From an uncultured Lachnoclostridium sp. (lineage in GTDB: Bacteria > Bacillota > Clostridia > Lachnospirales > Lachnospiraceae): a DNA stretch of 54,045 bases. Shown here piece by piece: positions 4,999 through 44,402 of this stretch. The notes beneath the pieces were generated by a model. It saw only the letters and a list, made by a program, of their open reading frames with translations, did no database searches and was not told the DNA's origin. Location of the stretch: assembly GCA_944376715.1 (NCBI GenBank), contig CALWDO010000016.1:1-54045 (forward strand), read 5' to 3'. Numbering within the stretch: the first letter of the stretch is position 1; each line of letters opens with the position of its first letter. Position numbers and translations under genes: made by a program.

Positions 4999-5060
4999 TA
5001 TTCCATGATGAATTTTGGAAAGTAAGTATCCAAAAGTAACGAATAAGAGGAACGGTGATT

Positions 5061-5405: not shown

Positions 5406-5407
5406 AA

Positions 5408-5740: not shown

Positions 5741-5767
5741 AAGACTGCCGATAAAGAGGTCAGACAA

Positions 5768-6118: not shown

Positions 6119-6139
6119 TAATTCCCCGCAAAGGAATAA

Positions 6140-6172
6140 GAAAACCCTCGGACCGCCATCTGAGGGTTTTCG
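6140..6172. terminator. Bidirectional intrinsic terminator
   Basis: GAAAACCCTC pairs with GAGGGTTTTC around a loop of about 12 nt, giving A- and T-tracts on both sides. It serves the DUF2200 gene (+) and azlD (-). Confidence 0.85.
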
Positions 6173-6176
6173 TTAA

Positions 6177-10738: not shown

Positions 10739-10752
10739 AAAAGGAGAAGAAA

Positions 10753-27445: not shown

Positions 27446-28171
27446 CTAGTTTTGCAGGTCGTTATCTGGCTGCAGGACAGACCAGGTATCAACGGAGTCA
27501 GTGACGACCTGATCGATTCGGTCATAGTCTCTGGCTTTGATCACATCAAGGATTGATTTATGTACTTGATACACGATCTCGCCTTTCTGATTTTTATGGC
27601 TGGCAATGATGGACGGTTCCATAAAATCTATGACGAAACCGTAGACGCGTTCCATTAAAGGATTTTTTGTGCAGCTTCCCAACAGACGGTGGAATTCCAG
27701 ATCGTTTTCTTTCAGGTCCTGAGGAGTAGCTCCGGTCTTCATCATTTCTTTCAGATTATTCAGATTGTTTTCCAGAGCAATTCGCTCAGGCTCATTTTCA
27801 TCATAGTGTTTTAAAATCATTTCCAGTACGTCAATTTCAAATACATGGCGGAATTCATACAGATTTTCTAAATCAGGATTGGAAACGAAGAAACTGAACA
27901 AAAGAGAATCCATCAGAGAATTCCCGGGAGTTTCGCAAACATAGGTTCCATTTCCGATTTTAATATCTACTAAACCAAACGCAGACAGTATTTTCATAGC
28001 TTCCCGCACAGATCCGCGGCTTACATTCATGCCTTCAGAGATCTCTAATTCACTGGGGAGCCGGTCGCCTGGCTTTAATTTTTTCTCTATTAAAAGCTGT
28101 TTGATATTGTTGACCACCAGATCAACAGCAGATTCACGCTTGTTGGCGCGGAATAGTTCATTTACTTCCAT
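27446..28171 (-). CDS. GntR/FadR-family regulator (FCD domain)
   Basis: A 241-residue repressor. The N-terminal winged helix (KLKPGDRLPSELEISEGMNVSRGSVREAMKILSAFGLVDIKIGNGTYV, about residues 30-85) is classical GntR. The C-terminal FCD domain (about 95-235) has metal/ligand residues in EFRHVFEIDVLEMI, DLEFHRLLG and VYQVHKSIL. FCD-type regulators sense sugar acids or organic acids. It is divergent to the catabolic operon, so it is the likely local regulator, with candidate operators at 28384-28422. Its own promoter is at 28223-28250. Confidence 0.93.
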   Translation of the reverse strand: MEVNELFRANKRESAVDLVVNNIKQLLIEKKLKPGDRLPSELEISEGMNVSRGSVREAMKILSAFGLVDIKIGNGTYVCETPGNSLMDSLLFSFFVSNPDLENLYEFRHVFEIDVLEMILKHYDENEPERIALENNLNNLKEMMKTGATPQDLKENDLEFHRLLGSCTKNPLMERVYGFVIDFMEPSIIASHKNQKGEIVYQVHKSILDVIKARDYDRIDQVVTDSVDTWSVLQPDNDLQN

Positions 28172-28405: not shown

Positions 28406-28422
28406 TCAAACATCAGATGTTT
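28384..28422 (+). promoter_or_regulatory. Tandem operator-like sites for the GntR regulator
   Basis: ATCAGACGTTT (28384-28394) sits between -35 and -10 and ATCAGATGTTT (28412-28422) covers the start point, 28 bp apart. The second is part of a perfect palindrome AAACATC-A-GATGTTT (28408-28422). Both positions fit repression of the operon. Confidence 0.65.
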
Positions 28423-28457
28423 AATGAATTTGCAATACAGGAACAGGAGGGTATGGT

Positions 28458-29279
28458 ATGAACACGGCAGAGCTGAAGCAGATGGCGGATCGTCTGCGTA
28501 TGACAGCGGTTGAGATGGTCTATAAGGGAAAGGATGGACATCCGGGACCTGCACTGTCCATTGCTGATATTATGGCAGTGCTCTATTTTGATGAGATGAG
28601 ATTGGATCCGTCTAATCCGGATTGGGAGGACAGAGACCGTTTTATCTTGTCTAAAGGACATGCGTGTCCGATCTATTATGCGGCATTGTCTGAACGGGGA
28701 TATTTTGGGGAAAAAGTAAAAGATTTCAAACTTCGTGCTCTGGGAAGTATGTTCCAGGGACATCCGACTATGCAAAAGACGAAGGGCGTAGATATGACTT
28801 CCGGATCTCTTGGAAATGGTATCGCAGTTGCCTGCGGTATGGCTATAGCCGGAAAGTATCGTAAGAAAGATTACTATGTGTACACCATAGTCGGAGATGG
28901 AGAATTACAGGAAGGTGTGTGCTGGGAAGGAATTAACACAGCGGCAGCGCATAAATTGGACAATCTGATTGTATTTGCCGATAAAAACGGCTGGCAGAGC
29001 GGCGGCAGCGTGGAAGATACGATTGGCAGCAACAATTTGAAAGAACGGTTTGAGGCTTTTGGATGGCATGCACAGGAGATCAACGGACATGATATCGATG
29101 CGATCAAAGCGGCGATTGCGGAAGCTAAGAAGGCGGCTGGAAAACCGAGCGTGATTGTCTGTGATTGTGTTAAAGGAAAAGGACTGTCGTTCATGGAAAA
29201 TAACAACGCATGGCATAAAGGAGTTCCCAGCGATGAGCAATATCAGACGGCGTTAAAAGAATTAGGAGGTGCAGAATAA
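28458..29279 (+). CDS. Transketolase-like, N-terminal (TPP-binding) subunit
   Basis: A 273-residue thiamine-diphosphate-binding half of a split transketolase. Seen are KGKDGHPGPALSIADIMAVLYF, LSKGHACPIYYAAL, and the TPP motif GDGELQEGVCWEG...DKNGWQ. AGGAGGG precedes the ATG. The stop overlaps the next start by 1 nt (TAATG). Split transketolases in catabolic operons often act on unusual ketoses (for example apulose 4-phosphate or sulfofructose); that is family knowledge. The donor in this operon is unknown. Confidence 0.92.
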   Translation: MNTAELKQMADRLRMTAVEMVYKGKDGHPGPALSIADIMAVLYFDEMRLDPSNPDWEDRDRFILSKGHACPIYYAALSERGYFGEKVKDFKLRALGSMFQGHPTMQKTKGVDMTSGSLGNGIAVACGMAIAGKYRKKDYYVYTIVGDGELQEGVCWEGINTAAAHKLDNLIVFADKNGWQSGGSVEDTIGSNNLKERFEAFGWHAQEINGHDIDAIKAAIAEAKKAAGKPSVIVCDCVKGKGLSFMENNNAWHKGVPSDEQYQTALKELGGAE

Positions 29280-30214
29280 TGGCAGGTTTTAAAGGAACGA
29301 GAGAAGCGTTTGCCCAGGCATTGATTGATGCCGCAGCGCAGGATGATTCTATTATGTTTGTTTCTCCTGATTCGCTGAAAGCAATGCGAGCGACAAAATT
29401 CGCGGAGCTGCATCCGGATCAGTATGTGGAAGTTGGAATTGCCGAGCAGGGAGCGGTAGATACTGCTGCGGGACTGGCAGCCTGCGGACTGAAGCCGGTG
29501 GTCGGTACATACGCGGGATTTATGACCATGCGTGCCTGTGAACAGATGAGAACTTTTGTGGCATATCCGGATCTGAATGTAAAATTTGTAGGAATTAACT
29601 CAGGATTGTTGGGGGGAGAAAGAGAGGGCGTGACACATCAGTTTTATGAAGATCTCGGAATCCTGTCCAATATTCCTAATTTTACGATATTTACTCCGGC
29701 AGACGCGGCACAGACTTATCATGCGGTAAGAAAGGCATTGGAGATTGAAGGCCCGGTCTATGTGAGAGCAGGAAGCGGCAGAGAGGCGGATGTATTTGAT
29801 CTGGATGTACCGTTTTCCATGGACGGCATTACGGTGCTGAAAGAATACGGGCAGGACACATTGCTTTTATCCAGCGGTTTTGTACTGGATCGAGTGCTGG
29901 CAGCGGCAGAGATGCTGGAAAAAGAGGGAATTCATGTGACGGTAGGCGATGTGAACATTCTGTATGGAAAGAATACAGAAAAATTACTGAAAGTAATTTC
30001 TGCATTTGACCGGATTGTGACAGTGGAAGATCACAATGTTAATGGTGGTCTTGGAGCATATATCAGTAAGCTGGTCTGCGAACATGAACCGAAGAAAGTA
30101 ACCAGGATCGGGCTTACCACGTTTGGCGAATCCGGTCCGGCTAAAGAACTGGCGGATTACTACGGATTCTCTCCGGAAAATATTTCCAACACTGTAAAGA
30201 ACGGACTGAAGTAA
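29279..30214 (+). CDS. Transketolase-like, C-terminal (Pyr plus C-terminal domain) subunit
   Basis: A 311-residue partner of the preceding gene. The pyrimidine-binding domain carries the catalytic Glu in VEVGIAEQGAVDTAAGLAACGLKPVVGTYAGFM, and the C-terminal domain ends with VEDHNVNGGLGAYISKLV. AGGAGGTG lies just upstream of the overlapping ATG. It forms the active site with the N-terminal subunit at the dimer interface. Confidence 0.92.
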   Translation: MAGFKGTREAFAQALIDAAAQDDSIMFVSPDSLKAMRATKFAELHPDQYVEVGIAEQGAVDTAAGLAACGLKPVVGTYAGFMTMRACEQMRTFVAYPDLNVKFVGINSGLLGGEREGVTHQFYEDLGILSNIPNFTIFTPADAAQTYHAVRKALEIEGPVYVRAGSGREADVFDLDVPFSMDGITVLKEYGQDTLLLSSGFVLDRVLAAAEMLEKEGIHVTVGDVNILYGKNTEKLLKVISAFDRIVTVEDHNVNGGLGAYISKLVCEHEPKKVTRIGLTTFGESGPAKELADYYGFSPENISNTVKNGLK

Positions 30215-30237
30215 AATAAAGAAAGAGGCGATTATCA

Positions 30238-31098
30238 ATGGAAAAAGTAAGAGTGGCAGTGATCGGGGCAGGCGGAAAGATGGGCACCCGTACCAGCAAA
30301 AATCTGGCGAAGAATCCTGACAAATATGATCTGATGCTGGTGGAGAACGCGCCGAAAGGAATTGAAAGCATCCGTGCAAGGGGCATGGACGTGACGCCGG
30401 TGGAAGAAGCGCTGGAAAAAGCGCAGGTGGTAATCTTTGCTGTACCGGATACTCTGATTCAGAAGCTGTCGGCTATGTATGTCCCGATGTTAAAACCGGG
30501 AACCGGATTTTTGATTCTGGATCCTGCGGCAGCAGTGGCGAAAGAATTAACGTTGAGAGATGACTGCACGTTCGGTGTCGCACATCCGTGCCATCCGTCT
30601 TTCTTCCTGGATCAGGACACGAAAGAGGCTCGTATGGACCGTTTCGGCGGCGAGGGCGGTAAACAGGACATTGTTATGAGCAAGATCTGCGGCGATGATG
30701 AGGTATTTGCCCTGATGCAGGAAACTGCCAGGATCATGTACGCAGCCGAGCATGCTTATGTAATGACTTCCGAACAGATTGCATTTCTGGAGCCGACTCT
30801 GGTAGAACTGTTGGGGGCTACCTGCCTGTACGCTATGGCCGAAACGGTAGATGAAGCGGTGAGAAGAGGCATTAACCGGGATGCAGCAGTATCGTTTATG
30901 ACGGGACATGTATATAATTTGTGCGCGAACTTCCTGGGATATATTCCAGGTAATCCTCCGGTATCGGATGCGTGTAAAGTGGCGATCGGGCTGGGGAATC
31001 GGCTTGTGCTCAGGGATAACTGGAAAGATATCTGGAAAGATGAAGTGCTTGACAAAGTAATCGCGACTATGCTTCATCCGGACAATCCACAGATCTAA
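30238..31098 (+). CDS. NAD(P)-dependent dehydrogenase with PGDH_C-type C-terminus
   Basis: A 286-residue oxidoreductase of the 6-phosphogluconate-dehydrogenase-like superfamily. The Rossmann motif GAGGKMG is at residues 10-16, then a catalytic-type HPCHPSFF loop, and an all-helical PGDH_C-like C-terminal domain (EQIAFLEPTLVELLGATCLYAMAETVDEAVRRGI). The same superfamily includes D-apionate oxidoisomerase, which acts on a non-phosphorylated sugar acid; a similar role here is inference. It is followed by a small hairpin and then the binding-protein gene. Confidence 0.82.
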   Translation: MEKVRVAVIGAGGKMGTRTSKNLAKNPDKYDLMLVENAPKGIESIRARGMDVTPVEEALEKAQVVIFAVPDTLIQKLSAMYVPMLKPGTGFLILDPAAAVAKELTLRDDCTFGVAHPCHPSFFLDQDTKEARMDRFGGEGGKQDIVMSKICGDDEVFALMQETARIMYAAEHAYVMTSEQIAFLEPTLVELLGATCLYAMAETVDEAVRRGINRDAAVSFMTGHVYNLCANFLGYIPGNPPVSDACKVAIGLGNRLVLRDNWKDIWKDEVLDKVIATMLHPDNPQI

Positions 31099-31103
31099 AC
31101 TGC

Positions 31104-31125
31104 TTGAAGGCCTGCAAGGCTTCAA
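31104..31125 (+). promoter_or_regulatory. Intercistronic hairpin upstream of the binding-protein gene
   Basis: TTGAAGGCCT pairs with AGGCTTCAA (one bulge). No T-tract follows, so it is more likely an mRNA processing or stability element than a terminator. Confidence 0.45.
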
Positions 31126-31150
31126 AATAATTATGAAAAGGGGAGAAAAT

Positions 31151-32293
31151 ATGAAACTGAGACAAAGACTGCTGGCTTTGCTGCTGGCATCGGCAATGGC
31201 GCTGTGCACGGCTGCCTGTGGAAGCAGTACAGAAACCACAACAGAAACGGACACGTCTGCAACAGAGGGGACACAGGAAGATACGACAGCTGCAGAAGAA
31301 ACTGATGCGGCGGAGAGTGAAGCGGCTGATGGGGCAGCAGCAGGAACGACAGATCTGGCCGCAGGAGATTACGTAATTGGTCTTTCAAACTCTTTCTATG
31401 GAAATACCTGGAGACGACAAATGGTAGATTCCTTCACGCAGGCAGCAGAAGAAGCAAAGAGCGAAGGGTATATTGCAGATTATGAGATCCAGAATGGGGA
31501 TAATACTGTGAATACGCAGATTGCACAGATCAATTCCTTTATCCTGGAAGGCGTGGATGCTATATGTATTAATGCCGCTTCTTCAACTGCGTTAAATGAC
31601 GTGATTCAGCAGGCAATGGATCAGGGAATCGTGATTGTTGCATTCGATTCTATCATCGATCTGGAAGGCGCCTATACAATGGATTATGACTGGGTCAGCA
31701 TGGGTGAGACAAAGACGCAGTACGTGGTAGACGCAATCGGTGGAGAAGGAAATGTAATTATCGTTCGAGGCCCGTCAGGAGCCGCTCCGGATGAAGGCAT
31801 TTATAAAGGAATTATGAATGTGCTGGATCAGTATCCGGATGTGACGGTGGCGGCAGAAGTTCTTGGGGAAGCAGACGCAACTGTGACACAGGAGGGTATT
31901 TTAAATATTATTTCGTCTCTTCCGGAGATTGATGCTGTCATTACTCATTGCGGCGCCGATTCTATGGGCGTAGTTAATGCATTTGAGTCTATGGGTATGG
32001 AAGTACCGCTGACGATAGGAGACAATACGGCAGAATTTATTAACTGGTGGGCAGAACAGGCGAAAAGCGGTTATGAAACTATGTCTGTAAATTCTACGCC
32101 GTCTTGCGGAGCGGGCGCTTTGTGGGTGGCAGTAGCTATCCTGAATGGAGTAGATGTACCGCAGAATATGTATCTGCCATTCATTTATATTAATCAAGAT
32201 GAGATTGGCGAATATACAGATTTGGAAGCCGGGGAAATTGCAAGTCCGTATATGAGTTACGAATATGTGGTAGAAAACATTCTGCAACAGTAA
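31151..32293 (+). CDS. Sugar-type ABC transporter substrate-binding lipoprotein (RbsB-like)
   Basis: A 380-residue lipoprotein with signal peptide and lipobox TAAC, a low-complexity Thr/Glu linker (about residues 22-75) and a type I periplasmic-binding fold: GLSNSFYGNTWRRQMVDSFTQAAEEAK, QIAQINSFILEGVDAICINAASS, VIVAFDS, RGPSGAAPDEGIYKG. AAGGGGAG precedes ATG 31151; the ATG at 31133 overlaps that RBS. It delivers the operon substrate to the two permease domains encoded next. RbsB-type proteins bind sugars or polyols. Confidence 0.92.
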   Translation: MKLRQRLLALLLASAMALCTAACGSSTETTTETDTSATEGTQEDTTAAEETDAAESEAADGAAAGTTDLAAGDYVIGLSNSFYGNTWRRQMVDSFTQAAEEAKSEGYIADYEIQNGDNTVNTQIAQINSFILEGVDAICINAASSTALNDVIQQAMDQGIVIVAFDSIIDLEGAYTMDYDWVSMGETKTQYVVDAIGGEGNVIIVRGPSGAAPDEGIYKGIMNVLDQYPDVTVAAEVLGEADATVTQEGILNIISSLPEIDAVITHCGADSMGVVNAFESMGMEVPLTIGDNTAEFINWWAEQAKSGYETMSVNSTPSCGAGALWVAVAILNGVDVPQNMYLPFIYINQDEIGEYTDLEAGEIASPYMSYEYVVENILQQ

Positions 32294-32332
32294 ATAATAG
32301 AAAATATGTTTCAATCCTAAAAAGTATAATGT

Positions 32333-32368
32333 TGGCCGCTGCTTGCCAGTATGATCAGGCGGCGGCCA
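32333..32368 (+). promoter_or_regulatory. Strong intercistronic hairpin after the binding-protein gene
   Basis: TGGCCGCTGC pairs with GCGGCGGCCA (10 bp with one G-T). There is no T-tract. It probably stabilises the upstream binding-protein mRNA and lowers expression of the transporter part. Confidence 0.6.
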
Positions 32369-32414
32369 CCATTATTATATGCAGAAAAATGATTTGGAAT
32401 TGAGGTGGAACAAT

Positions 32415-34871
32415 TTGGAGATGACAACGGGAGCGCAGGAAAAACAAGAAGACCGGATTCCTTTAATACAGGCTGATCACTTCCGCAAAGTATATTTTCC
32501 TACCGTTGCAGTGGATGACATCAGTATTTCCATTTATAAAGGAGATATCCTGGCTCTTGTGGGTGCAAACGGAGCAGGGAAAAGTACGTTGACGAAGGCG
32601 TTATCAGGAGTTATCAATTGCGACGAAGGCGAGTTGTACGTAGAGGGAAAAGAGGTGGATTTATCCTCCTATAGCCCACTGACAGCCAGGAAATTGGGAA
32701 TCCGTGTAGTACATCAGGAATTATCCTTATGTAAGAACCTGACTGTGTATGAAAATTTTTATGTGGAACAACCACAAAGCGCGAAGGGATCAAATTGGAG
32801 AAAAAAAGCTCGTCAAATGGCAAAAGAAGCGTTGGATAAAGTGTTTCCTGAGCACGGAATAGATGTCAATGCAGGACTTGATAAGTTGAGTATTGCTCAG
32901 CAGCAGATGGTGGAAATCGCCAGAGCTACGTGTGATCCGGATATGCGTTTAATGATTCTGGATGAGCCGACATCGTCTCTTCCGGCAGAGCAGACAGGAC
33001 AGCTGCAGGATTACCTGATGCGTACCGCAAAAGAGGGGATGACCTATATTTACATATCCCACCGTTTAAATGAGATTATGACAATTGCAAATAGAGTCTA
33101 TATCATGCAGAACGGTAATAAAAAATGGGAAGGAAGCATCCATGAAACCAGCGAAGAGCACATGGTTGCGCTGATGGGAGAAGGGATCGGTTCAGGGGAA
33201 GCGGTCACTGAATGCGGAGAATATACACCTCCAGAGCCCAATGAAGACGTTTTTGTGAAATGCGACGGATATACGACACAGGCGCTTCATAATATAAAAT
33301 TCGAGGTTTACGGAGGGCAGATTTTAGGGCTGACGGGACTGGAAGGAAACGGGCAGCTGGATCTCTTACAGGAGATTTTTAAAAAGGCGGGGAAACAGAT
33401 ATCAGGCATGCAGATCAAAGGGACGGTTGCTTATGTGGCCGGAGATCGGAAAAAAGAAGGAATCTTTCCGCTTTGGTCCATTGCCGACAATCAAGTGATC
33501 ACAAAAGCGGCACATGGCGGTTTGCTTCGACATCTGAGCAAAGAGTGGTTGGAAGAATCGGTAGGATACTGGTATGATAAACTGCACATAAAAAGTGATG
33601 GCCCAGAAGCTCTGATCACAAGTTTGTCCGGAGGAAACCAGCAGAAAGTTTTGATTGCCAGAGCGTTGGTAGCCGATGCAGATATTATACTGTTGGACGA
33701 TCCGACCAGAGGTGTTGACCAGCCCACAAAGAATGCGCTGTATGAATTGTTCCGGGAAGCAGCATCTAACGGGAAACTGGTTATATGGAGAACCTCCGAT
33801 GATGCGGAGTTGGAATTTTGCACGAAACTGCTGGTAATGAATAGCGGGCGTGTAGTAGGAAAATTTGAAGGCGATACAGTGGATCATGGGAAAATCATGA
33901 GCCTTTCTTTTACGAGTGAGGAAAAGAAAAATGAGTCAGGAGACGAAAAACGGCATTTCCAGATGCCAGGTTTTTTATTTGCTCTGATTGCTATGATTGT
34001 GATCTATGGAGTATGTGCAACCAGGTCTCCACTGCTTTTAAGCACATACGGAGTACAGTTAATGGTAACTGGATTTGCGGCGCTGGTAATGTGCGCCTTA
34101 TCCCAGACTTTCATTATTGGACTTAGCCACGTAGATTTAGGAGTCGGAAATTTCTGCGGTTTAGTGAATGTTCTTTGTTGTACATTCCTATTTGACAATC
34201 CAATAATGGGCGCAGTTGCGCTGCTGGTCGTACTTGCAGCATATCCGTTAATGGGATATGTGATATGCAAAAGGAATGTTCCTGCCATCATAGTGACATT
34301 AGGAGCATCCTTTGTGTGGAGCGGTATTGCTCTTTCTATTCAGTCTATGCCCGGAGGAACGTGCCCTGCCTGGATTCGGTCCATTTTCTATACAAATACA
34401 CCGATTTTGAATACTCTTTGTTTTTGGCTTGTAGTCTTTTTAATTGTGGCAATTCTCATATATCGAAGCAGATATGGAACAGTTCTCAGAGGATTTGGAA
34501 ACAATGAAAATGCTATGATCAACTCGGGATGGTCCAGAGCCAAAGCTTATATGTCTATCTATCTGCTGGCAGGAATTTTTGCTTTACTGGCGGGCGTATG
34601 TACCTCAGCGATCAATAATGCGTCAGATGCATCTGCCTCCGATACATATACAATGTTGTCGGTGGCCTCGGTTATCATAGGAGGAGGATATTTCTCAGGT
34701 GGAGTGGTCAGCCATTTTGGAGCTGTCTGCGGCGCAGTCAGTCTGACTATGATCAGTGTATTGCTGGGACTGTTCCGGGTCAGTACAGACTATACGGCTT
34801 CAATTCAAGGTTTGGTTTTGATATTGATATTGTCGTTGCGTTTACTTAAGGGAAGGAGGAAGACCGCATGA
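32415..34871 (+). CDS. ABC sugar transporter: RbsA-type double ATPase fused to an RbsC-type permease
   Basis: An 818-residue fusion. Two ATPase halves come first: half 1 has GANGAGKST, LSIAQQQMVEIARA and ILDEPTSSL; half 2 has the usual degenerate P-loop (GLTGLEGNGQ) with LSGGNQQKVLIARAL and LLDDPTRGVD. From about residue 515 a polytopic permease follows (ALVMCALSQTFIIGLSHVDLGVGNFCGLVN, SVASVIIGGGYFSGGVVSHFGAVCGA). Normally RbsA (about 500 residues) and RbsC are separate. The start is uncertain: GAGGTGG (32402-32408) favours TTG 32415; ATG 32421 and ATG 32379 are alternatives. It overlaps the second permease gene by 4 nt. Confidence 0.9.
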   Translation: MEMTTGAQEKQEDRIPLIQADHFRKVYFPTVAVDDISISIYKGDILALVGANGAGKSTLTKALSGVINCDEGELYVEGKEVDLSSYSPLTARKLGIRVVHQELSLCKNLTVYENFYVEQPQSAKGSNWRKKARQMAKEALDKVFPEHGIDVNAGLDKLSIAQQQMVEIARATCDPDMRLMILDEPTSSLPAEQTGQLQDYLMRTAKEGMTYIYISHRLNEIMTIANRVYIMQNGNKKWEGSIHETSEEHMVALMGEGIGSGEAVTECGEYTPPEPNEDVFVKCDGYTTQALHNIKFEVYGGQILGLTGLEGNGQLDLLQEIFKKAGKQISGMQIKGTVAYVAGDRKKEGIFPLWSIADNQVITKAAHGGLLRHLSKEWLEESVGYWYDKLHIKSDGPEALITSLSGGNQQKVLIARALVADADIILLDDPTRGVDQPTKNALYELFREAASNGKLVIWRTSDDAELEFCTKLLVMNSGRVVGKFEGDTVDHGKIMSLSFTSEEKKNESGDEKRHFQMPGFLFALIAMIVIYGVCATRSPLLLSTYGVQLMVTGFAALVMCALSQTFIIGLSHVDLGVGNFCGLVNVLCCTFLFDNPIMGAVALLVVLAAYPLMGYVICKRNVPAIIVTLGASFVWSGIALSIQSMPGGTCPAWIRSIFYTNTPILNTLCFWLVVFLIVAILIYRSRYGTVLRGFGNNENAMINSGWSRAKAYMSIYLLAGIFALLAGVCTSAINNASDASASDTYTMLSVASVIIGGGYFSGGVVSHFGAVCGAVSLTMISVLLGLFRVSTDYTASIQGLVLILILSLRLLKGRRKTA

Positions 34872-35866
34872 AAAACCCGAAATTGAAAGCTTTTGTGGGC
34901 AGAAACGGCAGCTGGCTGTTTGCCGGAATCGGCTGTATCGTTTTGTGGATATTAATGGGGCTGTTTGGCAGCGGAATCAGCCTTCGTTCTCTGATAGACA
35001 ATGCATATACGGCATCCTTCCTTGCTATTGCAGGCCTGGCGCAGATGCTGGTAGTTACAACAGGAAGAGGCGCTATCGATCTGTCTATTCCGGGAATGAT
35101 CACGCTTGGCGCCTATACTTGTATGGGAATTTGTAATGGACAAAATTCCATGATTGTTCCGGCGCTGCTGGTAGTATTGCTGGAAGGCGTAATTGTGGGT
35201 ACTTTGAACAGCGCTATGGTGATCTGGCTGAAGATTCCTGCAATTATCGCAACTATGGCAATGAACTATATGATTGTTACGGTAACTATGCTGGTTAATA
35301 ACCAGTTCAATGTATTTACGATTCCGCCGATTTTGAAAAATATTGCCACGTTCCGGATTGCTACGGTTCCGGTGATGGTGGTTCTGGTTATCTTATTGGC
35401 TGCCCTGATTCACTTTATGCTGACAAGCACTACATATGGAAAGAGTTTATTATCCATGGGGCAAAATCAGGAGGCGGCACGTTTGGCCGGTGTCAAGATT
35501 ATCAAAACTGAGATGATCACTTATATTACTGCAGCTGTTCTGGCTGGAATTGCGGGCGCATTGATCTCCGCGCGCGTGACCGGAGCATATCTGGGTATGG
35601 GAGATAACTATCAGATGGAGAGTATTGCCTGTATCGTTGTAGGTGGAACTCTAATGTCCGGAGGAAGAGCGAATGCGGCGGGGACATTAGTAGGATCATT
35701 GTTTTTATATCTGATTATTTCTTGTATGCAGTTGATGGGCGCGGATGCAGGTATGCAAAGCGTAGTAAAGGGTGCGTTAATTATTATTGTACTTCTGATT
35801 GGCGCTTCGGATAATAATTCCAGAAGAGAGAAGAAATACAGAAAGACAGTGAATAAAACGGCTTGA
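34868..35866 (+). CDS. ABC sugar transporter permease (RbsC-type)
   Basis: A 332-residue polytopic permease with the RbsC/BPD_transp_2 pattern (TTGRGAIDLSIPGMITLGAYT, AARLAGVKIIKTEMITYITAAVLAGIAGALISARV, ESIACIVVGGTLMSGGRANAAGTLVGSLF). It starts inside the stop of the fusion gene (ATGA). With the permease half of the fusion it would give a heterodimeric membrane core. Confidence 0.92.
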   Translation: MKNPKLKAFVGRNGSWLFAGIGCIVLWILMGLFGSGISLRSLIDNAYTASFLAIAGLAQMLVVTTGRGAIDLSIPGMITLGAYTCMGICNGQNSMIVPALLVVLLEGVIVGTLNSAMVIWLKIPAIIATMAMNYMIVTVTMLVNNQFNVFTIPPILKNIATFRIATVPVMVVLVILLAALIHFMLTSTTYGKSLLSMGQNQEAARLAGVKIIKTEMITYITAAVLAGIAGALISARVTGAYLGMGDNYQMESIACIVVGGTLMSGGRANAAGTLVGSLFLYLIISCMQLMGADAGMQSVVKGALIIIVLLIGASDNNSRREKKYRKTVNKTA

Positions 35867-35890
35867 TGCATCAGAAAGGAGCAGAAACAG

Positions 35891-36643
35891 ATGATTTTAG
35901 ATGCACATGTACATTTGGGTGAAGATGTGGTATTTGACGAGGTAAATACGGAAGAAGAATTGATTCAATATTATGATGAATTCCAGGTTGACGGAGGAAT
36001 TATCCAGCCATTTATTCCGCGGCCTTATATTAAAGACCACCAGGATATTCATGACCGTATTGCAAAATTCTGTAAAGAGCAGTGGCCTCGCAAGAAATTT
36101 TTCGGAATGGCTTCCATCAATCCTCATTTTTATCCGGAGGATTATTATGAAGAGGCCAGAAGATGCGTGCAAGATTTGGGTTTTGTAGCGCTCAAGATTA
36201 CGTCAATAGCGCATGCGTGCCATCCGTCTTCCAAAGACGCTTATTATGTGTATGAAGTATGCCGGGATCTGAAAGTGCCGCTTATGATCCATACGGGCAA
36301 CGGAATCCCTTTTGCTGATCCCACAAGTGTATACCAGGGAGCGAAAGATCATCCTGATGTTCCCGTAATTTTGGCGCACGCGGGATCTGAATCATTCAAT
36401 CAGCAGGCGCGCCTTTTGGCAAAAAAACTGGATAATGTATTTTTGGAACCTAGCTGGTGCGGAACAAATGCAGTGAAACATATGATTGAAGAGGTCGGGT
36501 GTGATAAGATCCTCTTCTCATCGGATAATTTAGATCAGATTCCGGTGGAATTGGCTAAATACCGCCAAATTATTAAAAATGAAGATGATCTGGAAAAAGT
36601 TATGTGGAAAAATACGGCCAGAATATTTAACTTAAAACTGTAA
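35891..36643 (+). CDS. Amidohydrolase family 2 protein, possible sugar-acid lactonase
   Basis: A 250-residue TIM-barrel hydrolase of the amidohydrolase-2 type. Metal or catalytic positions are visible: DAHVHLG at residues 4-10, HTGNG, LAHAGS, and SSDN with the late Asp. Related enzymes hydrolyse lactones of sugar acids or decarboxylate aromatic acids. In this operon a lactonase acting after a sugar dehydrogenase is the favoured guess. GAAAGGAG precedes the ATG. Confidence 0.82.
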   Translation: MILDAHVHLGEDVVFDEVNTEEELIQYYDEFQVDGGIIQPFIPRPYIKDHQDIHDRIAKFCKEQWPRKKFFGMASINPHFYPEDYYEEARRCVQDLGFVALKITSIAHACHPSSKDAYYVYEVCRDLKVPLMIHTGNGIPFADPTSVYQGAKDHPDVPVILAHAGSESFNQQARLLAKKLDNVFLEPSWCGTNAVKHMIEEVGCDKILFSSDNLDQIPVELAKYRQIIKNEDDLEKVMWKNTARIFNLKL

Positions 36644-36685
36644 GAAAACAGGAATGATTCCGAGAGAAACAGGGAGGGCGGTTTT

Positions 36686-37726
36686 TTGAAAAAGAAAACA
36701 GATAAACGGACAAACGGACTGATGATAGCATTGACAATTGCAGCAGCGGCGCTTGTCCTGCTTCTGGTGATTGGAGGCTCCCTGTTTCGTCAGAATATAT
36801 GGAAACGGGCGGCGGCGTATCAGGTAGGAGAAGAGACATATTCAGTAGCAGAGGTAGAATGGTACTATTACACGGCTTATTATTCCATTATCGGAAATGC
36901 TTCCGGGTATACAGAAATATTGGGCCTGGATACAGATTTGAATCTTTCTGAGCAGCAGTGTCCATTGTCCGAAAAAGGAGAGAGCTGGAGGGATTATTTG
37001 CTAGGGCGAGCGCTTCAGAAGATTTCAGATGTTTCTGCAAAATATCAGGAAGCACAGTCAAAGGGTAATGTGGATGAGGCAGTAATACAGAATAATACGG
37101 AAAGTGCTCTGGAATATTGGAGAATGAGGGCTTCAGAAGCCGGATACGCCAGTCTGGATCAATATTTGCGGGAAGTTTATGGCGGTATTCAGGAAGCGGG
37201 GCTGAGGAAAGTTTTAGAGCAGGAGTATACGGCTCAGGCTTACGAAGAAGAGTATATAGCCGGTTTCGCACCTACGGAGGAAGAATTACACAGTTATTTC
37301 GAGACTCATAGAAAAGAATTCCGCACTTATTCTTATCTATATGGATACATAGGGACGGATAAAGCGCTGGCCGAAGAGGTATGTAATGCTTCGGACGAAC
37401 AAGAATTTCGGAATATGGTACACGATCTGACGGGTACAGAGTGTTACGAACTGTTGGATATGACGGCATCAGAACTTGGGAATGATGAGTCAAAGGATTG
37501 GGAATGGCTATCAGATCCGGACAGACAGGAAGGGGATACCTGGTGCGGACAGAGCGGGGAAAACTATTATGTGCTTTGGTTCTTAGGAAGTGAGGATGGA
37601 GAGGAAGACTGGGATACATATGCACAGAAGGGCCTGCAGGAAGAATATCTGAAAGACTGGAATGATGCCCTTGCAGAGAAATATGTAAGTCATGAACGAT
37701 TCTGGATTCGTTTCGTAGGTAAATAA
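36686..37726 (+). CDS. Membrane-anchored SurA/PrsA-like protein without recognisable PPIase domain
   Basis: A 346-residue protein with a basic N-terminus and one membrane helix (about residues 11-31), then a helical domain like the chaperone part of SurA/PrsA (ALEYWRMRASEAGYASLDQYLREVYGG, PTEEELHSYFETHRKEFRTYSYLYGYI). The parvulin signature is not recognisable, so it would be chaperone-like or inactive. It starts with TTG after GGGAGGGCGG. Its location inside a sugar-acid operon is odd; it may help fold the binding lipoprotein outside the membrane. Confidence 0.65.
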   Translation: MKKKTDKRTNGLMIALTIAAAALVLLLVIGGSLFRQNIWKRAAAYQVGEETYSVAEVEWYYYTAYYSIIGNASGYTEILGLDTDLNLSEQQCPLSEKGESWRDYLLGRALQKISDVSAKYQEAQSKGNVDEAVIQNNTESALEYWRMRASEAGYASLDQYLREVYGGIQEAGLRKVLEQEYTAQAYEEEYIAGFAPTEEELHSYFETHRKEFRTYSYLYGYIGTDKALAEEVCNASDEQEFRNMVHDLTGTECYELLDMTASELGNDESKDWEWLSDPDRQEGDTWCGQSGENYYVLWFLGSEDGEEDWDTYAQKGLQEEYLKDWNDALAEKYVSHERFWIRFVGK

Positions 37727-37756
37727 TGAAATATGTGTTTAGAAAGGAGCAAGACA

Positions 37757-38722
37757 ATGAAAATCGTAGTATTAGACGGATATACAGAAAATCCCGGGGA
37801 TATCAGCTGGGCACCATTGGAAGCGTTGGGAGAAGTGACAGTATATGACAGGACATCCTATGAAGAATCTCCATTAATCGCAAAACGGATCGGAGATGCG
37901 GAGATTGTAGTGGTAAATAAAACGCCTGTCAGCAGGGAGACTATGGTTCAGTGCCCAAATCTGAAAGCGATCGCAGTACTTGCTACAGGATACAATGTAA
38001 TTGACTGCGAATATGCTAAGAGCAGAGGAATCCCGGTTATGAATGTGCCGGTGTACGGAACCGATAATGTGAGTCAGTTTGCCGTAAGTCTTCTGATGGA
38101 GGTATGCTCCCATATTGGACATCACAATGAATCCGTACATGCGGGGGAATGGGCAAATAATCCCGACTGGTGCTATTGGCATTACCCTATGATCGAAGTG
38201 TCCGGTAAGACGGCCGGTATCATTGGTCTTGGACGTATTGGTGTGAATACCGCAAAAATATTAAATGCCATGAATGTACATGTGATCGCTTACGATTCTT
38301 ATCCAAGTGAAGCGGGAAAACAGGTGGCAGAATATGTGGAACTGGACGAACTGCTGGCAAAATCCGATTTTATTTTCCTGCATTGTCCATTGTTCCCGTC
38401 TACGCGAGGAATCATCAATAAAGAAAATATCGCGAAGATGAAAGACGGCGTGATTATCATCAATAACAGCCGCGGGCCGCTGATCGTGGAGCAGGATCTG
38501 TATGAAGCGCTGGAGAGCGGGAAAGTGGCTGCCGCAGCCGTGGATGTAGTATCCACAGAGCCGATTAAGCCGGACAACGTGCTGCTGAAGGCAAAGAACT
38601 GTATCATCACACCGCATATTTCCTGGGCGACGAAAGAGGCGAGGGAAAGGATCATGCAGACAACTGCCGAAAACATACAGTCTGTGATTGACGGCGCACC
38701 CAGGAATGTGGTAAACCAATAA
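37757..38722 (+). CDS. D-isomer-specific 2-hydroxyacid dehydrogenase (glycerate/hydroxypyruvate type)
   Basis: A 321-residue NAD(P)-dependent dehydrogenase. The nucleotide-binding motif GLGRIGVNTAKIL is present, and the catalytic triad is Arg in NNSRGPLI, Glu in DVVSTEP and His in TPHISWAT. GAAAGGAG sits just before ATG 37757; a further in-frame ATG (37733) lacks a site. Being next to glycerate kinase, reduction of hydroxypyruvate (or glyoxylate/tartronate semialdehyde) to D-glycerate (or glycolate) is the likely reaction. Confidence 0.9.
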   Translation: MKIVVLDGYTENPGDISWAPLEALGEVTVYDRTSYEESPLIAKRIGDAEIVVVNKTPVSRETMVQCPNLKAIAVLATGYNVIDCEYAKSRGIPVMNVPVYGTDNVSQFAVSLLMEVCSHIGHHNESVHAGEWANNPDWCYWHYPMIEVSGKTAGIIGLGRIGVNTAKILNAMNVHVIAYDSYPSEAGKQVAEYVELDELLAKSDFIFLHCPLFPSTRGIINKENIAKMKDGVIIINNSRGPLIVEQDLYEALESGKVAAAAVDVVSTEPIKPDNVLLKAKNCIITPHISWATKEARERIMQTTAENIQSVIDGAPRNVVNQ

Positions 38723-38748
38723 TAAAAACAGACGGGCGGGGTAATAGG

Positions 38749-39888
38749 ATGAAAATAGTGATTGCGATCGATTCTTTAAAGGGGAGCCTTAGTTCTATGG
38801 AAGCGGGAAACGCCATAAAAGAAGGCGTCTTGAAGGCGGATCCGGATGCTCAGGTTCTGGTCAAACCACTGGCGGACGGCGGGGAAGGCACCACAGAGGC
38901 TTTATCGGAAGGACTGGGCGGAGAACTGGTGCAGGTGGAAGTGCATGGGCCGATGGATACTCCGGTGACTGCCGCGTATGGCTGGATCAGGGAAAGCAAA
39001 ACAGCAGTGCTGGAGATGGCAGCCGCGGCGGGTATCACTCTGGTTGGAAAAGAGAAACAGCCGCTGCATGCTACGACCTATGGAGTCGGCGAGATGATCC
39101 GCGATGCGGTGAAACTGGGGTGCCGCGATTTCGTCATCGGAATCGGCGGCAGCGCTACCAACGACTGCGGGATTGGCATGCTGACGGCGCTGGGGTATGA
39201 GTTCCTGGATGCGTCGGAAAATTCTGTAGGAATCGACGCGGACGCGCTGAAAGATGTGGCTCGGATCCGGACGGACCATGTCATGCCGGAACTGGAAGAG
39301 TGCAGTTTCCGCGTGGCCTGCGATGTGACCAACCCTTTGTGCGGTCCAAACGGCGCTACTTTCATCTACGGACCTCAGAAGGGCGTGACGGAAGAGATGA
39401 AGGAGAAGCTGGATCAGGATCTGGGACATTTTGCAGAAGTGACGAAAAGATGCCTGGGCGCAGACTGTGCCGACATGGAAGGCGCAGGCGCGGCAGGCGG
39501 ATTGGGATACGCGTTTATGGCTTATCTGAAAGCCGATCTGAGACCGGGGATTGATCTGGTGCTGGAAGCAGTGGATATGAATGAGGCGATGAAAGGCGCG
39601 GACCTGGTATTTACCGGGGAAGGACGGCTGGATCATCAGACTGCGATGGGTAAAGCGCCGGTTGGGATTGCCGCTTTGGCAAAGAAACATGGGGCGGCGG
39701 TGATCGCATTTGCAGGATCAGTGGCAGACGGAGCAGAGGCGTGTAATGAGAAAGGAATCGACGCGTATTTTCCCATACTGCGCCAGGTAGTAACACTGGA
39801 TGAAGCCATGGAGCCGCAGAGGGCCCGTCAAAATATGGCAAAGACTGCGGAACAGGTCATGCGGCTGGTGGAAGCGGTGCGAAGATAG
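38749..39888 (+). CDS. Glycerate kinase (GarK/GlxK family)
   Basis: A 379-residue kinase that phosphorylates D-glycerate, normally to 2-phosphoglycerate in this family. Visible features are IAIDSLKGSLSSMEAGNAIKEG, KPLADGGEGTTEAL, IGIGGSATNDCGIGML, and FTGEGRLDHQTAMGKAPVGIA. Length is typical. It closes the catabolic operon and links it to lower glycolysis. A stem follows the stop. Confidence 0.95.
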   Translation: MKIVIAIDSLKGSLSSMEAGNAIKEGVLKADPDAQVLVKPLADGGEGTTEALSEGLGGELVQVEVHGPMDTPVTAAYGWIRESKTAVLEMAAAAGITLVGKEKQPLHATTYGVGEMIRDAVKLGCRDFVIGIGGSATNDCGIGMLTALGYEFLDASENSVGIDADALKDVARIRTDHVMPELEECSFRVACDVTNPLCGPNGATFIYGPQKGVTEEMKEKLDQDLGHFAEVTKRCLGADCADMEGAGAAGGLGYAFMAYLKADLRPGIDLVLEAVDMNEAMKGADLVFTGEGRLDHQTAMGKAPVGIAALAKKHGAAVIAFAGSVADGAEACNEKGIDAYFPILRQVVTLDEAMEPQRARQNMAKTAEQVMRLVEAVRR

Positions 39889-39919: not shown

Positions 39920-39976
39920 ACCGGAAGCTGTAGCGGCTATTTTTGGAAGTCACTTCAGTTTCCGGTATTTTCATTT
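39920..39976 (+). terminator. Probable terminator of the catabolic operon
   Basis: ACCGGAAGCTG pairs with CAGTTTCCGGT (11 bp with one G-T) across about 25 nt, followed by ATTTTCATTT. Confidence 0.6.
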
Positions 39977-41810: not shown

Positions 41811-43433
41811 ATGAAGGATGTAAGGAAACGCATTCTTGCGCTTCTGCTGGCTCTTGCTTTTGTGCTTGGCATGGCAGGATGCGGCAGCCAGAGTGCGGAA
41901 GACACCACAGAAAATGACACCACTGTTGCGGAAACAGCAGATGAGGAGAGTACAGCTTCTGAAGAAACGGCAGATGCTGTGGATCCGGATGCCGAGATTG
42001 TTCTGGCCGGATACCGCAACCTTGCCCCTGGTGAGAAGGACGGGTACTACTGCAGCAAAATTCTTTATGTGTGGGAGCCGCTTGTGACGCAGGATGACAC
42101 GGGTGCGCCCGTTCCATGCCTGGCAGAGAGCTGGGAAATGAGCGAAGACGGAAAACAGTGGACCTTCTACCTGAGACAGGGAGTAAAGTTCCATGACGGA
42201 AGCGACTTTAATGCAGATACGGTCATAGCCAATTTTGACCGCATGAAGATGGGGGTAAAGAGTTCTTCTTTCTACCCGCTTGACATCGACTCCCATTATC
42301 CGAATCTGGAGAATTATGAGAAGGTGGACGATTATACTATCCGCCTGACCTTTTCACAGCCTGCGCCCACGCAGCTTTACAACATGGTAAACTTCGGAAG
42401 CGCCATTTACAGTCCGAACTGCTTTGATGAGAACGGTGATTTTAACGGAATCTGCATCGGAACCGGCCCATTCCGCATTACAGAAAATGTACTTGATGAG
42501 TACGTGCTTCTGGAGCGCTTTGATGAGTACTGGGGAGAGACGGCAAAGGCAAAGAATATCCGAGTGCGTGTGATTCCGGATGCGGATACCCGTTTTTCGG
42601 CTCTGAAGTCCGGAGAAATCATGGGTGTGATTGATTTGAATGCGATCCCGACTTCCCTGGCCGTAGAGCTGGAGGGAGACGGTAACTTTGCGCTCACGAC
42701 CACAAAGTCTACCATGATCCGTTTTCTCTGCCTGAATGGAACACAGTTCCCCTTCAATGATGTGCGGATGCGGCAGGCTGTAAGCCTGGCTCTTCAGCGT
42801 TCTGTGATTACAGAAGACATTTATGACGGCTTTGGAACGCCGACCACCAATATCCTAAATTACTCGACACCTTTCTATAAGGAATTTCCGGTAGAGGAGG
42901 ACATGGAAAAGGCGAAAGAGCTGGCTGCCGAGGTATTGGGAGATGAACGCGTTACCGTAACCTATCTCTACAACGGAAGTGAAGCAGCGCAGAAGGGAGA
43001 AGCGGAGCTGATTGCTTCCTGGCTCTCTGAAATCGGAATTGACTGTGAGCTTATGCCCATGGAAATGACCAATATGAAGGAACAGATGAAGACCGGGGAT
43101 TATGGCATTGCGCGGATGCAGCAGGGACTTTCCAATTCTGAGCCGGCAACGATCTTCCGCCGTTTCATGCTGACAAGCGGGGATCTCAATCAGAACTACA
43201 GTCTGGGATATCAGAGTGATGAAGTGGATGCCCTGATGGCGGAAGCAGAGAGTGCTCTTGATATGGACGTGCGCACGGAATGCTATAACCGGATTCAGGA
43301 AATTTCCACACAGGAGTTTCCTGTCGTTCCTTTGTTTAATGATATGACCCTGATGGCGTACAACACGAAGCTGACCGGGTACGAAGCCAAGCTTTACGGC
43401 ATAGAGCTGCCTCTTGTGGGATGGGCGGAATAA
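41811..43433 (+). CDS. NikA/DppA-type ABC substrate-binding lipoprotein
   Basis: A 540-residue family-5 binding protein (nickel/peptide type). Lipobox MAGC (Cys near residue 24), acidic linker, then the SBP_bac_5 pattern: VTQDDTGAPVPCLAESWEMSEDGKQWTFYLRQGVKFHDGSDFNADTV and RMRQAVSLALQRSVIT. AGGAGG precedes the ATG by 12-14 nt. Regulation by cobalamin suggests cobalt, a cobalt chelate or a corrinoid precursor as ligand, against the simple family reading of nickel or peptide. Confidence 0.9.
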   Translation: MKDVRKRILALLLALAFVLGMAGCGSQSAEDTTENDTTVAETADEESTASEETADAVDPDAEIVLAGYRNLAPGEKDGYYCSKILYVWEPLVTQDDTGAPVPCLAESWEMSEDGKQWTFYLRQGVKFHDGSDFNADTVIANFDRMKMGVKSSSFYPLDIDSHYPNLENYEKVDDYTIRLTFSQPAPTQLYNMVNFGSAIYSPNCFDENGDFNGICIGTGPFRITENVLDEYVLLERFDEYWGETAKAKNIRVRVIPDADTRFSALKSGEIMGVIDLNAIPTSLAVELEGDGNFALTTTKSTMIRFLCLNGTQFPFNDVRMRQAVSLALQRSVITEDIYDGFGTPTTNILNYSTPFYKEFPVEEDMEKAKELAAEVLGDERVTVTYLYNGSEAAQKGEAELIASWLSEIGIDCELMPMEMTNMKEQMKTGDYGIARMQQGLSNSEPATIFRRFMLTSGDLNQNYSLGYQSDEVDALMAEAESALDMDVRTECYNRIQEISTQEFPVVPLFNDMTLMAYNTKLTGYEAKLYGIELPLVGWAE

Positions 43434-43460
43434 CCCGGTACAACAGATGAACCCAACACT

Positions 43461-44402
43461 ATGAAACAATATCTAATCCAAAAACTGATTTCACTTCTCC
43501 CGGTATTGTTCGGGGTTTCACTGCTGGCCTTTGTACTGGGAGTCATCACTCCCGGAAACCCGGCAGAACTGGCTTTATCCCAGGGCGGATATGAGCCGAC
43601 GCCCGAGCAGATTACAGAGATGGAAGAGCAGATGGGTCTGGACGCGCCCTACCCCGTGCAGTATCTGCGCTGGGTGGGGCGTGCCCTTACCGGAGATCTT
43701 GGAACTTCCTACAGTACCAGAAATCCTGTGGGAGAAGAGCTGGCACGCCGTATCCCCGTGACGTTAAAGCTGGCCGCCTGCTCGATTACGCTTACGATTA
43801 TCCTGGGAATAGCACTTGGCTGTACAGCCGCTGCCTGGCAGGGAAGGCTTCCGGATCGCATCGTCGGGGCGCTGACCAATACACAGCTGTCTCTGCCGGC
43901 TTTCTGGCTCGCCCTTCTGTTGATTTTATTATTTGCTGAAACTCTGGGCTGGCTTCCCACCAGCGGAAACGGCGGCCCAAGATACATGATTATGCCTGCG
44001 CTTGTCCTTTCCAGCGCCAGTACAGCGACAGCGGCCCGCCTGACGCGCTCGGCGCTTCTGGAGGAGTTCGGGAAACAATATTGCACGGCGGCCATGGCCC
44101 GAGGGATCAGCCGCTGGCGCCTGGTGCTGAAAAATGCCCTGCCGAATGCGATCGTTCCCGTGACAGCCATGCTGGGAAACAGCCTGGGAGGGATGCTGGG
44201 CGGCTCCATCATCGTCGAGTCCATCTTTGCGCTTCCGGGAATTGGAAGCTATGCGCTGTCTGCAGTTACAAACCGGGACTATCCTGCCCTGCAGGGCTAT
44301 GTGCTGCTTACAGGTCTTATCTATGTCCTGATCACCCTTCTGGTAGATACGGTCAGTATGCTGCTGAATCCTAAAGTACGCCTGGGAGGTAAGAGAATAT
44401 GA
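43461..44402 (+). CDS. NikB/DppB-type ABC permease
   Basis: A 313-residue inner-membrane permease with the family start (LIQKLISLLPVLFGVSLLAFVLGVITPGNPAEL), GLDAPYPVQYLRWVGRALTGDLGTS, and the EAA-type loop CTAAMARGISRWRLVLKNALPNAIVPV. The next gene overlaps its stop by 4 nt. Confidence 0.93.
   Translation: MKQYLIQKLISLLPVLFGVSLLAFVLGVITPGNPAELALSQGGYEPTPEQITEMEEQMGLDAPYPVQYLRWVGRALTGDLGTSYSTRNPVGEELARRIPVTLKLAACSITLTIILGIALGCTAAAWQGRLPDRIVGALTNTQLSLPAFWLALLLILLFAETLGWLPTSGNGGPRYMIMPALVLSSASTATAARLTRSALLEEFGKQYCTAAMARGISRWRLVLKNALPNAIVPVTAMLGNSLGGMLGGSIIVESIFALPGIGSYALSAVTNRDYPALQGYVLLTGLIYVLITLLVDTVSMLLNPKVRLGGKRI

Follow-up and report, generated by a model that had tools for sequence, protein, structure and literature searches.

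The question raised by the locus

What is degraded by a bacterium whose operon places a split transketolase beside a protein with a phosphogluconate dehydrogenase C-terminal domain (PGDH_C), an ATP-binding cassette (ABC) importer, an amidohydrolase, a hydroxyacid dehydrogenase and a glycerate kinase? These genes lie at 28458-39888 in the window, i.e., the whole analysed stretch of 54,045 nucleotides on contig CALWDO010000016.1 of an uncultured Lachnoclostridium sp. (Lachnospiraceae). Ten closely packed open frames on the plus strand, spaced from a 4-base overlap to a gap of 85 bases, make up the operon, and a GntR regulator is divergent from it; both were confirmed. An earlier note on this DNA had named the importer, split transketolase, PGDH_C protein, amidohydrolase, hydroxyacid dehydrogenase, glycerate kinase and GntR regulator, and all were found in place with matching families. 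It had also outlined a pathway in which an unphosphorylated sugar acid enters, is oxidised, gives a C2 unit through transketolase to an acceptor such as glyceraldehyde 3-phosphate, and leaves a C3 oxo-acid to be reduced and phosphorylated. The comparative evidence supports this outline. We propose, with a probability of about 0.75, that the operon serves to break down D-apionate, the acid from the branched plant sugar apiose, by way of a transketolase; the substrate, every reaction, the cofactor and the acceptor are deduced from sequence, gene context and chemistry. The features are as follows.

27446..28171, minus strand: GntR/FCD regulator, divergent (PF00392 and PF07729)
28406..28424, no strand: palindrome TNAAACATC-N-GATGTTTAA, 33 bases ahead of tktA, probably the GntR operator
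28458..29279, plus strand: tktA, transketolase N subunit with the thiamine diphosphate domain (PF00456), proposed 3-oxo-isoapionate transketolase subunit A
29279..30214, plus strand: tktB, transketolase C subunit with Pyr and C domains (PF02779, PF02780), proposed subunit B
30238..31098, plus strand: ApnO, predicted D-apionate oxidoisomerase of the PGDH_C family with ketol-acid reductoisomerase (KARI) fold (PF16896 and KARI_N)
31151..32293 (longest frame from 31133), plus strand: sugar/acid-binding protein of the ABC importer (PF13407, Peripla_BP_4)
32379..34871, plus strand: ABC ATPase-permease fusion (two ABC_tran stretches and BPD_transp_2)
34868..35866, plus strand: second permease of the ABC importer (PF02653)
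35891..36643, plus strand: amidohydrolase-2 family protein (PF04909, Amidohydro_2), possible D-apionolactonase
36686..37726, plus strand: membrane-anchored frame, SurA/PrsA-like by eye (TTG start, N-terminal hydrophobic segment)
37757..38722 (longest frame from 37733), plus strand: D-2-hydroxyacid dehydrogenase (PF02826, 2-Hacid_dh_C), proposed hydroxypyruvate reductase
38749..39888, plus strand: glycerate kinase, proposed to be of the glycerate 2-kinase type (TIGR00045), last gene

Matches in Pfam were clear for Transketolase_N (1.9e-66), Transket_pyr (4.8e-33) and PGDH_C (4.2e-53), and the glycerate kinase matched TIGR00045 in NCBIfam at 3.4e-140, over the cut-off.

In the proposed route the importer would bring in D-apionate, or its lactone, which the amidohydrolase would open. 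ApnO would oxidise C2 and shift the hydroxymethyl group, giving 3-oxo-isoapionate, HOCH2-CO-C(OH)(CH2OH)-COOH, from which the split transketolase would hand the HOCH2-CO unit to glyceraldehyde 3-phosphate. Xylulose 5-phosphate and hydroxypyruvate (HOCH2-CO-COOH) would result. The 2-hydroxyacid dehydrogenase would reduce hydroxypyruvate to D-glycerate using NADH from ApnO, and glycerate kinase would convert D-glycerate to 2-phosphoglycerate. All five carbons would be kept with no loss of CO2, one ATP would be spent by the kinase, and the route as a whole would be redox-neutral because the NADH made by ApnO would be consumed by the reductase.

Identity of the PGDH_C protein

The protein at 30238-31098 had earlier been taken for a PGDH-like oxidase. 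The oxidation stands, but a simple dehydrogenase does not, since the protein has the KARI fold, belongs to the ApnO family and would be expected to isomerise as well. In addition to PGDH_C it matches KARI_N, the NADPH-binding domain of ketol-acid reductoisomerase, at 3.9e-06, above the curated cut-off. An AlphaFold2 model built from 24 sequences (predicted local distance difference test, pLDDT, 94) had 5t57 and two chains of 3c24, homologues of unnamed function, as its top three matches in the PDB; the remaining 47 of the 50 listed rows were ketol-acid reductoisomerases or the KARI-like BurG, with TM of about 0.5-0.65. A role like that of 6-phosphogluconate dehydrogenase was dropped, the fold being KARI-like.

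OiaK is the 3-oxo-isoapionate kinase, and OiaX is the 3-oxo-isoapionate-4-phosphate decarboxylase. Homologues of the PGDH_C protein with 40-43% identity adjoin genes that bear these names in their records. The kinase of locus L012 and the RuBisCO-like protein of locus L011 scored above the curated NCBIfam thresholds of OiaK and OiaX, respectively, and the kinase of L010 matched OiaK below the cut-off. In total, apnO is linked to an OiaK/OiaX or a decarboxylase-type module at 66 of 89 compared loci. For a Rhodobacteraceae strain growing on D-apiose, the consulted part of PMC11747546 names an apionolactonase, an apiose dehydrogenase, a D-apionate oxidoisomerase, a kinase and a decarboxylase among the cluster enzymes. 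Because the PGDH_C protein is the sole remaining candidate for the oxidoisomerase in clusters of the OiaK/OiaX type, and because the fold agrees, we read 30238-31098 as ApnO, predicted to convert D-apionate to 3-oxo-isoapionate in an NAD-dependent manner. It should isomerise, by hydroxymethyl migration, besides oxidising. The logic of ApnO is that of ketol-acid reductoisomerase reversed, i.e., oxidation with migration of the hydroxymethyl group, and the product is 3-oxo-isoapionate. The nearest routes had been sought earlier among those for D-apiose and D-apionate. The ApnO assignment bears this out, and it narrows the substrate to D-apionate and the C3 acid to hydroxypyruvate.

Genes found beside apnO

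The 89 ApnO loci, to which the window is extra, comprised 80 from one scan of a collection of 84,980 genomes and seven plus two added separately; the 80 were the best of 332 confirmed relatives, and counts among them are not population frequencies. Loci L008, L017 and L018 were left out, their ApnO match being none or partial. The stretches were about 3.4 to 20.9 kb long, and a gene missing at a locus may reflect a cut. A transketolase was found within 3 kb of apnO at 17 loci (the transketolase-type loci, 18 with the window), a xylose-isomerase-type protein at 43, OiaX and/or OiaK at 23, none of the three at 6, and two of them at no locus. Two loci were counted as decarboxylase type: L014, where a transketolase of 43% identity stands 8,255 bases away from apnO, and L084, where one of 35% identity lies beyond the 3-kb limit. 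OiaK matches below 35% identity were not scored as OiaK. Fisher's exact test of the alternation, window included, gave 4e-14, for loci that are related and not independent. The xylose-isomerase-type protein, which we take to be the published OiaC decarboxylase, was PF01261 in the three members of its seed family tested. The core order of tktA, tktB, apnO, binding protein, ABC fusion, permease and amidohydrolase is repeated in three other genomes (L013, L019 and L021). Since this order recurs and a transketolase lies close to apnO at the 17 other loci, the gene set is not a chance assembly.

The ApnO of the window falls into a clade of 21 (bootstrap/SH-aLRT, the latter a Shimodaira-Hasegawa-like approximate likelihood ratio test, 100/100), which holds the 18 transketolase-type proteins and those of three Accumulibacter/Propionivibrio loci with a xylose-isomerase-type protein; the 18 may or may not form one subclade within it (59/86). 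The three betaproteobacterial members thus carry a decarboxylase candidate where the others have a transketolase, with ApnO identities of 62-63%. At L034 the transketolase-apnO set, with an 84% identical ApnO, is on a contig assigned by binning to the Succinivibrionaceae (Pseudomonadota); either the contig was misbinned or the set was acquired horizontally.

The decarboxylase candidate of L027 was searched for in 13 genomes with transketolase-type loci; 10 gave nothing, and 3 gave partial matches of 22-28% identity. No RuBisCO-like protein was found in 11 of the 13. The genome of the window (88% completeness) had no homologue of the L027 decarboxylase at E<=1e-3, no RuBisCO-like protein and no OiaK.

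The split transketolase

A tree of 53 rows, AptA being entered twice, was made by a quick method that returned a long-branch warning. In it the 18 operon transketolases formed one group (SH-aLRT 100) whose stem measures 1.17 changes per site. The group is nested among the split transketolases of the class; outside it fall AptA of E. coli and two long rows, L014 and L025. All 18 keep H26, H66, H100, H261, R358, E411 and H473 (E. coli numbering), and all have A385, Y434, N461 and E469, with position 520 being S in 17 and N in 1. In the 29 other split transketolases, taken from the best-scoring loci and the window's own genome and assumed to be housekeeping enzymes, R358, F434, H461, D469 and R520 are found in 29/29, and position 385 is S in 22 and A in 7. 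Two canonical transketolases orient the phosphate via an RSFHR motif and the sulfofructose transketolase has RAFDR, according to the consulted part of PMC11659671. By our alignment, R-S-F-H-R would map to E. coli positions 358/385/434/461/520. At these phosphate-orienting positions the operon enzymes have R-A-Y-N-S instead of the R-S/A-F-H-R of the 29 others, and the canonical motif was not found in them. This pattern would fit a donor without a phosphate head group.

Could the enzyme be just an extra, regulated copy of the pentose phosphate transketolase, serving downstream metabolism rather than cleavage? Its nesting among the split transketolases of the class would agree with that. However, the window's genome already has a second split transketolase (G000:C1:354-1160, 52% identity), which clusters with enzymes from other genomes in the class, the head-group residues are changed in 18/18 operon enzymes, and the same genome, at its 88% completeness, yielded no other module for 3-oxo-isoapionate. 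We consider a spare enzyme very improbable, and set it aside on account of the second enzyme and the differing residues. A second divergent split transketolase pair was also seen in a Quinella genome (L025, 6026-7893), 44% and 33% identical to that of the window and directly before the apnO-linked pair.

Proposed fate of the released acid

The two last genes of the operon are commoner at transketolase-type loci than at other apnO loci. A hydroxyacid dehydrogenase was present at 9/17 of them vs 1/72 of the other apnO loci, and a glycerate kinase at 4/17 vs 0/72. Among genomes, a dehydrogenase homologue of at least 57% identity was found in 12/13 with transketolase-type loci, the window's included and lying away from the locus in G179 and G506 (locus L019), compared to 6/59 of the other genomes sampled from the class. 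The nearest solved structure was 5tx7, of unnamed function, with glyoxylate/hydroxypyruvate reductases lower in the list. We propose that 37757-38722 acts as a hydroxypyruvate reductase. The last two genes would need hydroxypyruvate; therefore, on chemical grounds, the donor of the C2 unit would be a ketol attached to a carbon with OH, CH2OH and COOH as substituents, i.e., 3-oxo-isoapionate, which is also the predicted product of ApnO.

Import and the entry step

In Paraburkholderia sprentiae, the cluster with OiaK (L012) encodes a similar importer. The binding proteins are 43% identical, the ATPase-permease fusion aligns over 96% of its length with the 828-residue frame of L012 at 41% identity, and the second permeases are 39% identical. 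A search of PDB sequences with the binding protein gave 4pe6 ("putative ABC transporter") as the best match, with no clear ligand. ABC importers occur at the window, L013, L019 and L021. TRAP (tripartite ATP-independent periplasmic) transporters were found at 8/17 transketolase-type loci, L013 among them, vs 5/72 others, and a major facilitator superfamily (MFS) carrier at 3/17, its best NCBIfam match being a D-galactonate transporter, below the cut-off. The TRAP and galactonate-type carriers suggest that an acid is the imported substrate. A Gfo/Idh dehydrogenase, the apiose dehydrogenase candidate, was absent from all 17 stretches vs present in 26/72 others, and the same was true for the 'hyp10' protein, a lactonase candidate with no Pfam match (0/17 vs 23/72). 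Therefore the starting compound for these operons seems to be the acid or its lactone.

The amidohydrolase tracks the ABC importer. It was present at 3/3 compared transketolase-type loci with the importer and 0/14 others, and the window has both. It was also found at the xylose-isomerase-type loci L014, L016, L038 and L039 and at the OiaX/OiaK locus L072, and four of these five have a Gfo/Idh dehydrogenase about 3 kb or less from apnO. Amidohydrolase and 'hyp10' never occurred together (0/8 compared loci with the amidohydrolase). Both observations would suit a lactonase.

Regulation

A 19-base palindrome, TCAAACATCAGATGTTTAA, was found at 28406-28424, both strands of one site, with 0.01 expected in shuffles. 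With up to four mismatches it occurred in 12/18 transketolase-type loci, always in or just before the operon start, against a background of 2.8 hits in 348,896 shuffled bases at four mismatches; none was found in 6/18. Seven of the 18 had it with two mismatches or fewer; of the three sister loci with the decarboxylase candidate, two had it, with 3 mismatches each. GntR homologues of 29-73% identity are encoded near transketolase-type apnO loci. The palindrome would be the binding site of the GntR protein, which would respond to an early intermediate.

At L023 a second perfect copy of the palindrome (3444) is followed, at 3513-7001, by genes for an Amidohydro_3 protein and a sodium:solute symporter. 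This unit is probably a further member of the regulon, that strain's importer for the same substrate. A protein of the Amidohydro_3 family is also encoded at 149-1741 in the window.

Points weighing against the proposed route

Several observations weigh against the route as proposed. Firstly, the stem to the window's ApnO clade is long, 0.98 or 1.47 changes per site in two trees, and a drift in substrate is possible because of it. The clade could have shifted to another sugar acid, with plain dehydrogenation to an oxo-acid and removal of a C2 ketol, e.g., giving glyoxylate from 3-oxo-tetronate. This we regard as unlikely, since 38 alignment columns are invariant across 24 ApnO sequences from all three locus types, the window's included. 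Moreover, the sister loci have the decarboxylase candidate, two of the three with the palindrome, and a 2-oxo-acid reductase with a glycerate kinase would need hydroxypyruvate, which by its chemistry would be releasable only from a ketol on C(OH)(CH2OH)COOH.

Secondly, the residues lost from the operon transketolases include ligands for the phosphate of the proposed acceptor, glyceraldehyde 3-phosphate. E. coli AptAB has A, T, A, N and G at the same positions, and its acceptor is glyceraldehyde 3-phosphate. The loss in the operon enzymes does not exclude this acceptor because AptAB lost these ligands as well.

Thirdly, 6/89 loci carry none of the three modules, and RuBisCO-like proteins are encoded elsewhere in 2/13 genomes with transketolase-type loci (G179 and Propionispira). 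The Propionispira genome (G511, locus L029) has two RuBisCO-like proteins about 22 kb apart on contig C32, plus its transketolase-type apnO locus.

Fourthly, the product side is incomplete in places. A full-length hydroxyacid dehydrogenase is lacking at 8/17 transketolase-type loci (at L030 it is cut by the contig end, and several stretches stop soon after apnO), 13/17 show no glycerate kinase in the stretch, and the best dehydrogenase homologue in the whole genome of a Pelosinus metagenome-assembled genome (G512) is only 39% identical. The scarcity of the kinase would suit a scheme in which hydroxypyruvate serves mainly as a second C2 donor for the same transketolase, with loss of CO2 and a second xylulose 5-phosphate formed, the reductase and kinase branch being accessory. 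Transketolase does accept hydroxypyruvate as a donor with CO2 loss, as stated in the consulted part of PMC7661550. Such a scheme would nevertheless leave the NADH from ApnO unbalanced in an anaerobe, and the hydroxyacid dehydrogenase is enriched at transketolase-type loci and in their genomes. We give it little credence.

Finally, the entry step is affected. MFS carriers are as common elsewhere (28/72 other loci), and the nearest folds to the amidohydrolase model (pLDDT 92.9) are decarboxylases and hydratases of the ACMSD/LigJ/LigY type, and 3cjp. The amidohydrolase could accordingly be a 3-oxo-isoapionate decarboxylase, with its product L-erythrulose used as transketolase donor and glycolaldehyde released; the listed folds are indeed largely ACMSD-type decarboxylases with LigJ/LigY, and erythrulose formation by transketolase from hydroxypyruvate and glycolaldehyde is given in the consulted part of PMC5836872. 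However, the gene is found at only 3/17 compared transketolase-type loci plus the window, and it would be redundant at L014, L016, L038 and L039, which have the decarboxylase candidate, and at L072, which has OiaX/OiaK. At four of these five loci the nearby Gfo/Idh dehydrogenase also speaks against it, and the presence of the operon's last two genes would be left unexplained. An erythrulose branch is thus distinctly unlikely, and a main decarboxylase role was dropped, the gene being absent from 14/17 compared loci. For the amidohydrolase in the D-apionate route we lean, with weak support, towards a D-apionolactonase. A possible lactonase had been suggested before; the gene context agrees with it, while the nearest folds do not.

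Adjacent genes

The frame at 36686-37726 had no family match in Pfam or NCBIfam. A similar frame (42% identical) lies 3' of the amidohydrolase in L019, the only one among the loci searched for it. A hairpin resembling a terminator is found at 39926-39938, past the last gene, to which little weight is given with 12 such patterns vs 9.2 in shuffles. Beyond the operon, at 41811-44402, lie genes for a peptide/nickel-type importer, namely a solute-binding protein of family 5 and a permease. A gene run at 7443-11889 encodes TelA, a toxic anion resistance protein, together with a VWA/solute-binding-like protein; in L019 a TelA gene directly adjoins the GntR gene of the operon.

Significance

The known D-apionate routes use a kinase with a RuBisCO-like decarboxylase, a kinase with a RuBisCO-like transcarboxylase/hydrolase, or a xylose-isomerase-type decarboxylase, and all lose CO2 or need RuBisCO-like chemistry. 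To our knowledge the transketolase route would be the fourth. If true, it keeps all carbon and balances NADH within the pathway, which suits fermenting gut bacteria, and transketolase chemistry gains a donor that releases an alpha-keto acid. It seems probable to us, with somewhat less confidence than for the route itself, that a transketolase was recruited to cut an unphosphorylated, carboxylated tertiary-alcohol ketose acid, freeing an alpha-keto acid and not an aldehyde, and that this would give Lachnospiraceae, Selenomonadales and other anaerobes a redox-closed, CO2-free use of D-apionate, switched on by a dedicated GntR regulator. Relatives annotated as "phosphogluconate dehydrogenase C-terminal domain-containing protein" or "transketolase", including loci in Blautia, thereby receive testable functions.

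Comparison with known systems

Among the titles listed from the open-licence PMC literature, no transketolase acting on an apionate derivative was described. The earlier note had recognised no described pathway. That note also proposed a comparison with apiose, apionate and sulfo-transketolase operons. ApnO is shared with the apionate clusters, and the operon was found to be a member of neither the AptAB, the OiaK/OiaX, the OiaC nor the sulfo-transketolase system.

Catabolism of D-apionate by OiaK and OiaX, i.e., kinase and RuBisCO-like decarboxylase, was reportedly described by Carter and colleagues in 2018. RuBisCO-like steps of D-apionate catabolism are mentioned in the consulted part of PMC6302742. 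Shared with this system are an enzyme of the ApnO family predicted to make 3-oxo-isoapionate and an FCD/NanR-type GntR regulator in the clusters seen; Paraburkholderia sprentiae also has a homologous importer, 39-43% identical and fused in the same way. In contrast, the window operon has no kinase of the OiaK kind and no RuBisCO-like protein, and transketolase cleavage would replace phosphorylation and decarboxylation. Membership was rejected, as the two proteins are absent from the operon and were not found in the genome at 88% completeness.

The OiaC-type pathway, with a decarboxylase of the xylose-isomerase family, has the same ApnO family, and a PF01261 protein lies near apnO in the nearest sister loci. 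Unlike it, the transketolase-type loci have a xylose-isomerase-type protein in 0/17, with no close homologue in 13 of their genomes, and membership was rejected on the missing L027 homologue in the window's genome.

AptAB, the apulose-4-phosphate transketolase, acts in D-apiose degradation in E. coli SE15 (PMC13001218, consulted part). It is likewise a split transketolase, and several head-group residues are replaced in both. Its substrate is a branched ketose with a tertiary alcohol at C3; the donor is phosphorylated and the product is dihydroxyacetone phosphate. In contrast, its cluster contains an FGGY kinase, and no relative of ApnO is annotated there. AptA lies outside the clade of 18, in the quick tree with its long-branch warning, and the window operon has no FGGY kinase, and membership was rejected.

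The sulfo-transketolase SqwGH of sulfoquinovose-degrading Faecalicatena transfers a C2 unit to glyceraldehyde 3-phosphate and forms xylulose 5-phosphate; as far as the consulted part of PMC11659671 goes, it resembles the operon enzyme in being a split transketolase of anaerobic Firmicutes with an unphosphorylated anionic donor and an altered RSFHR motif. It has RAFDR where the operon enzymes have R-A-Y-N-S, and no isomerase or sulfonate gene was recognised in the window operon with Pfam and NCBIfam; a sulfo-transketolase identity was rejected on the differing motif and the lack of a recognised sulfonate gene. Taken together, the operon is best called a transketolase variant of known D-apionate catabolism, one that appears to be hitherto undescribed.

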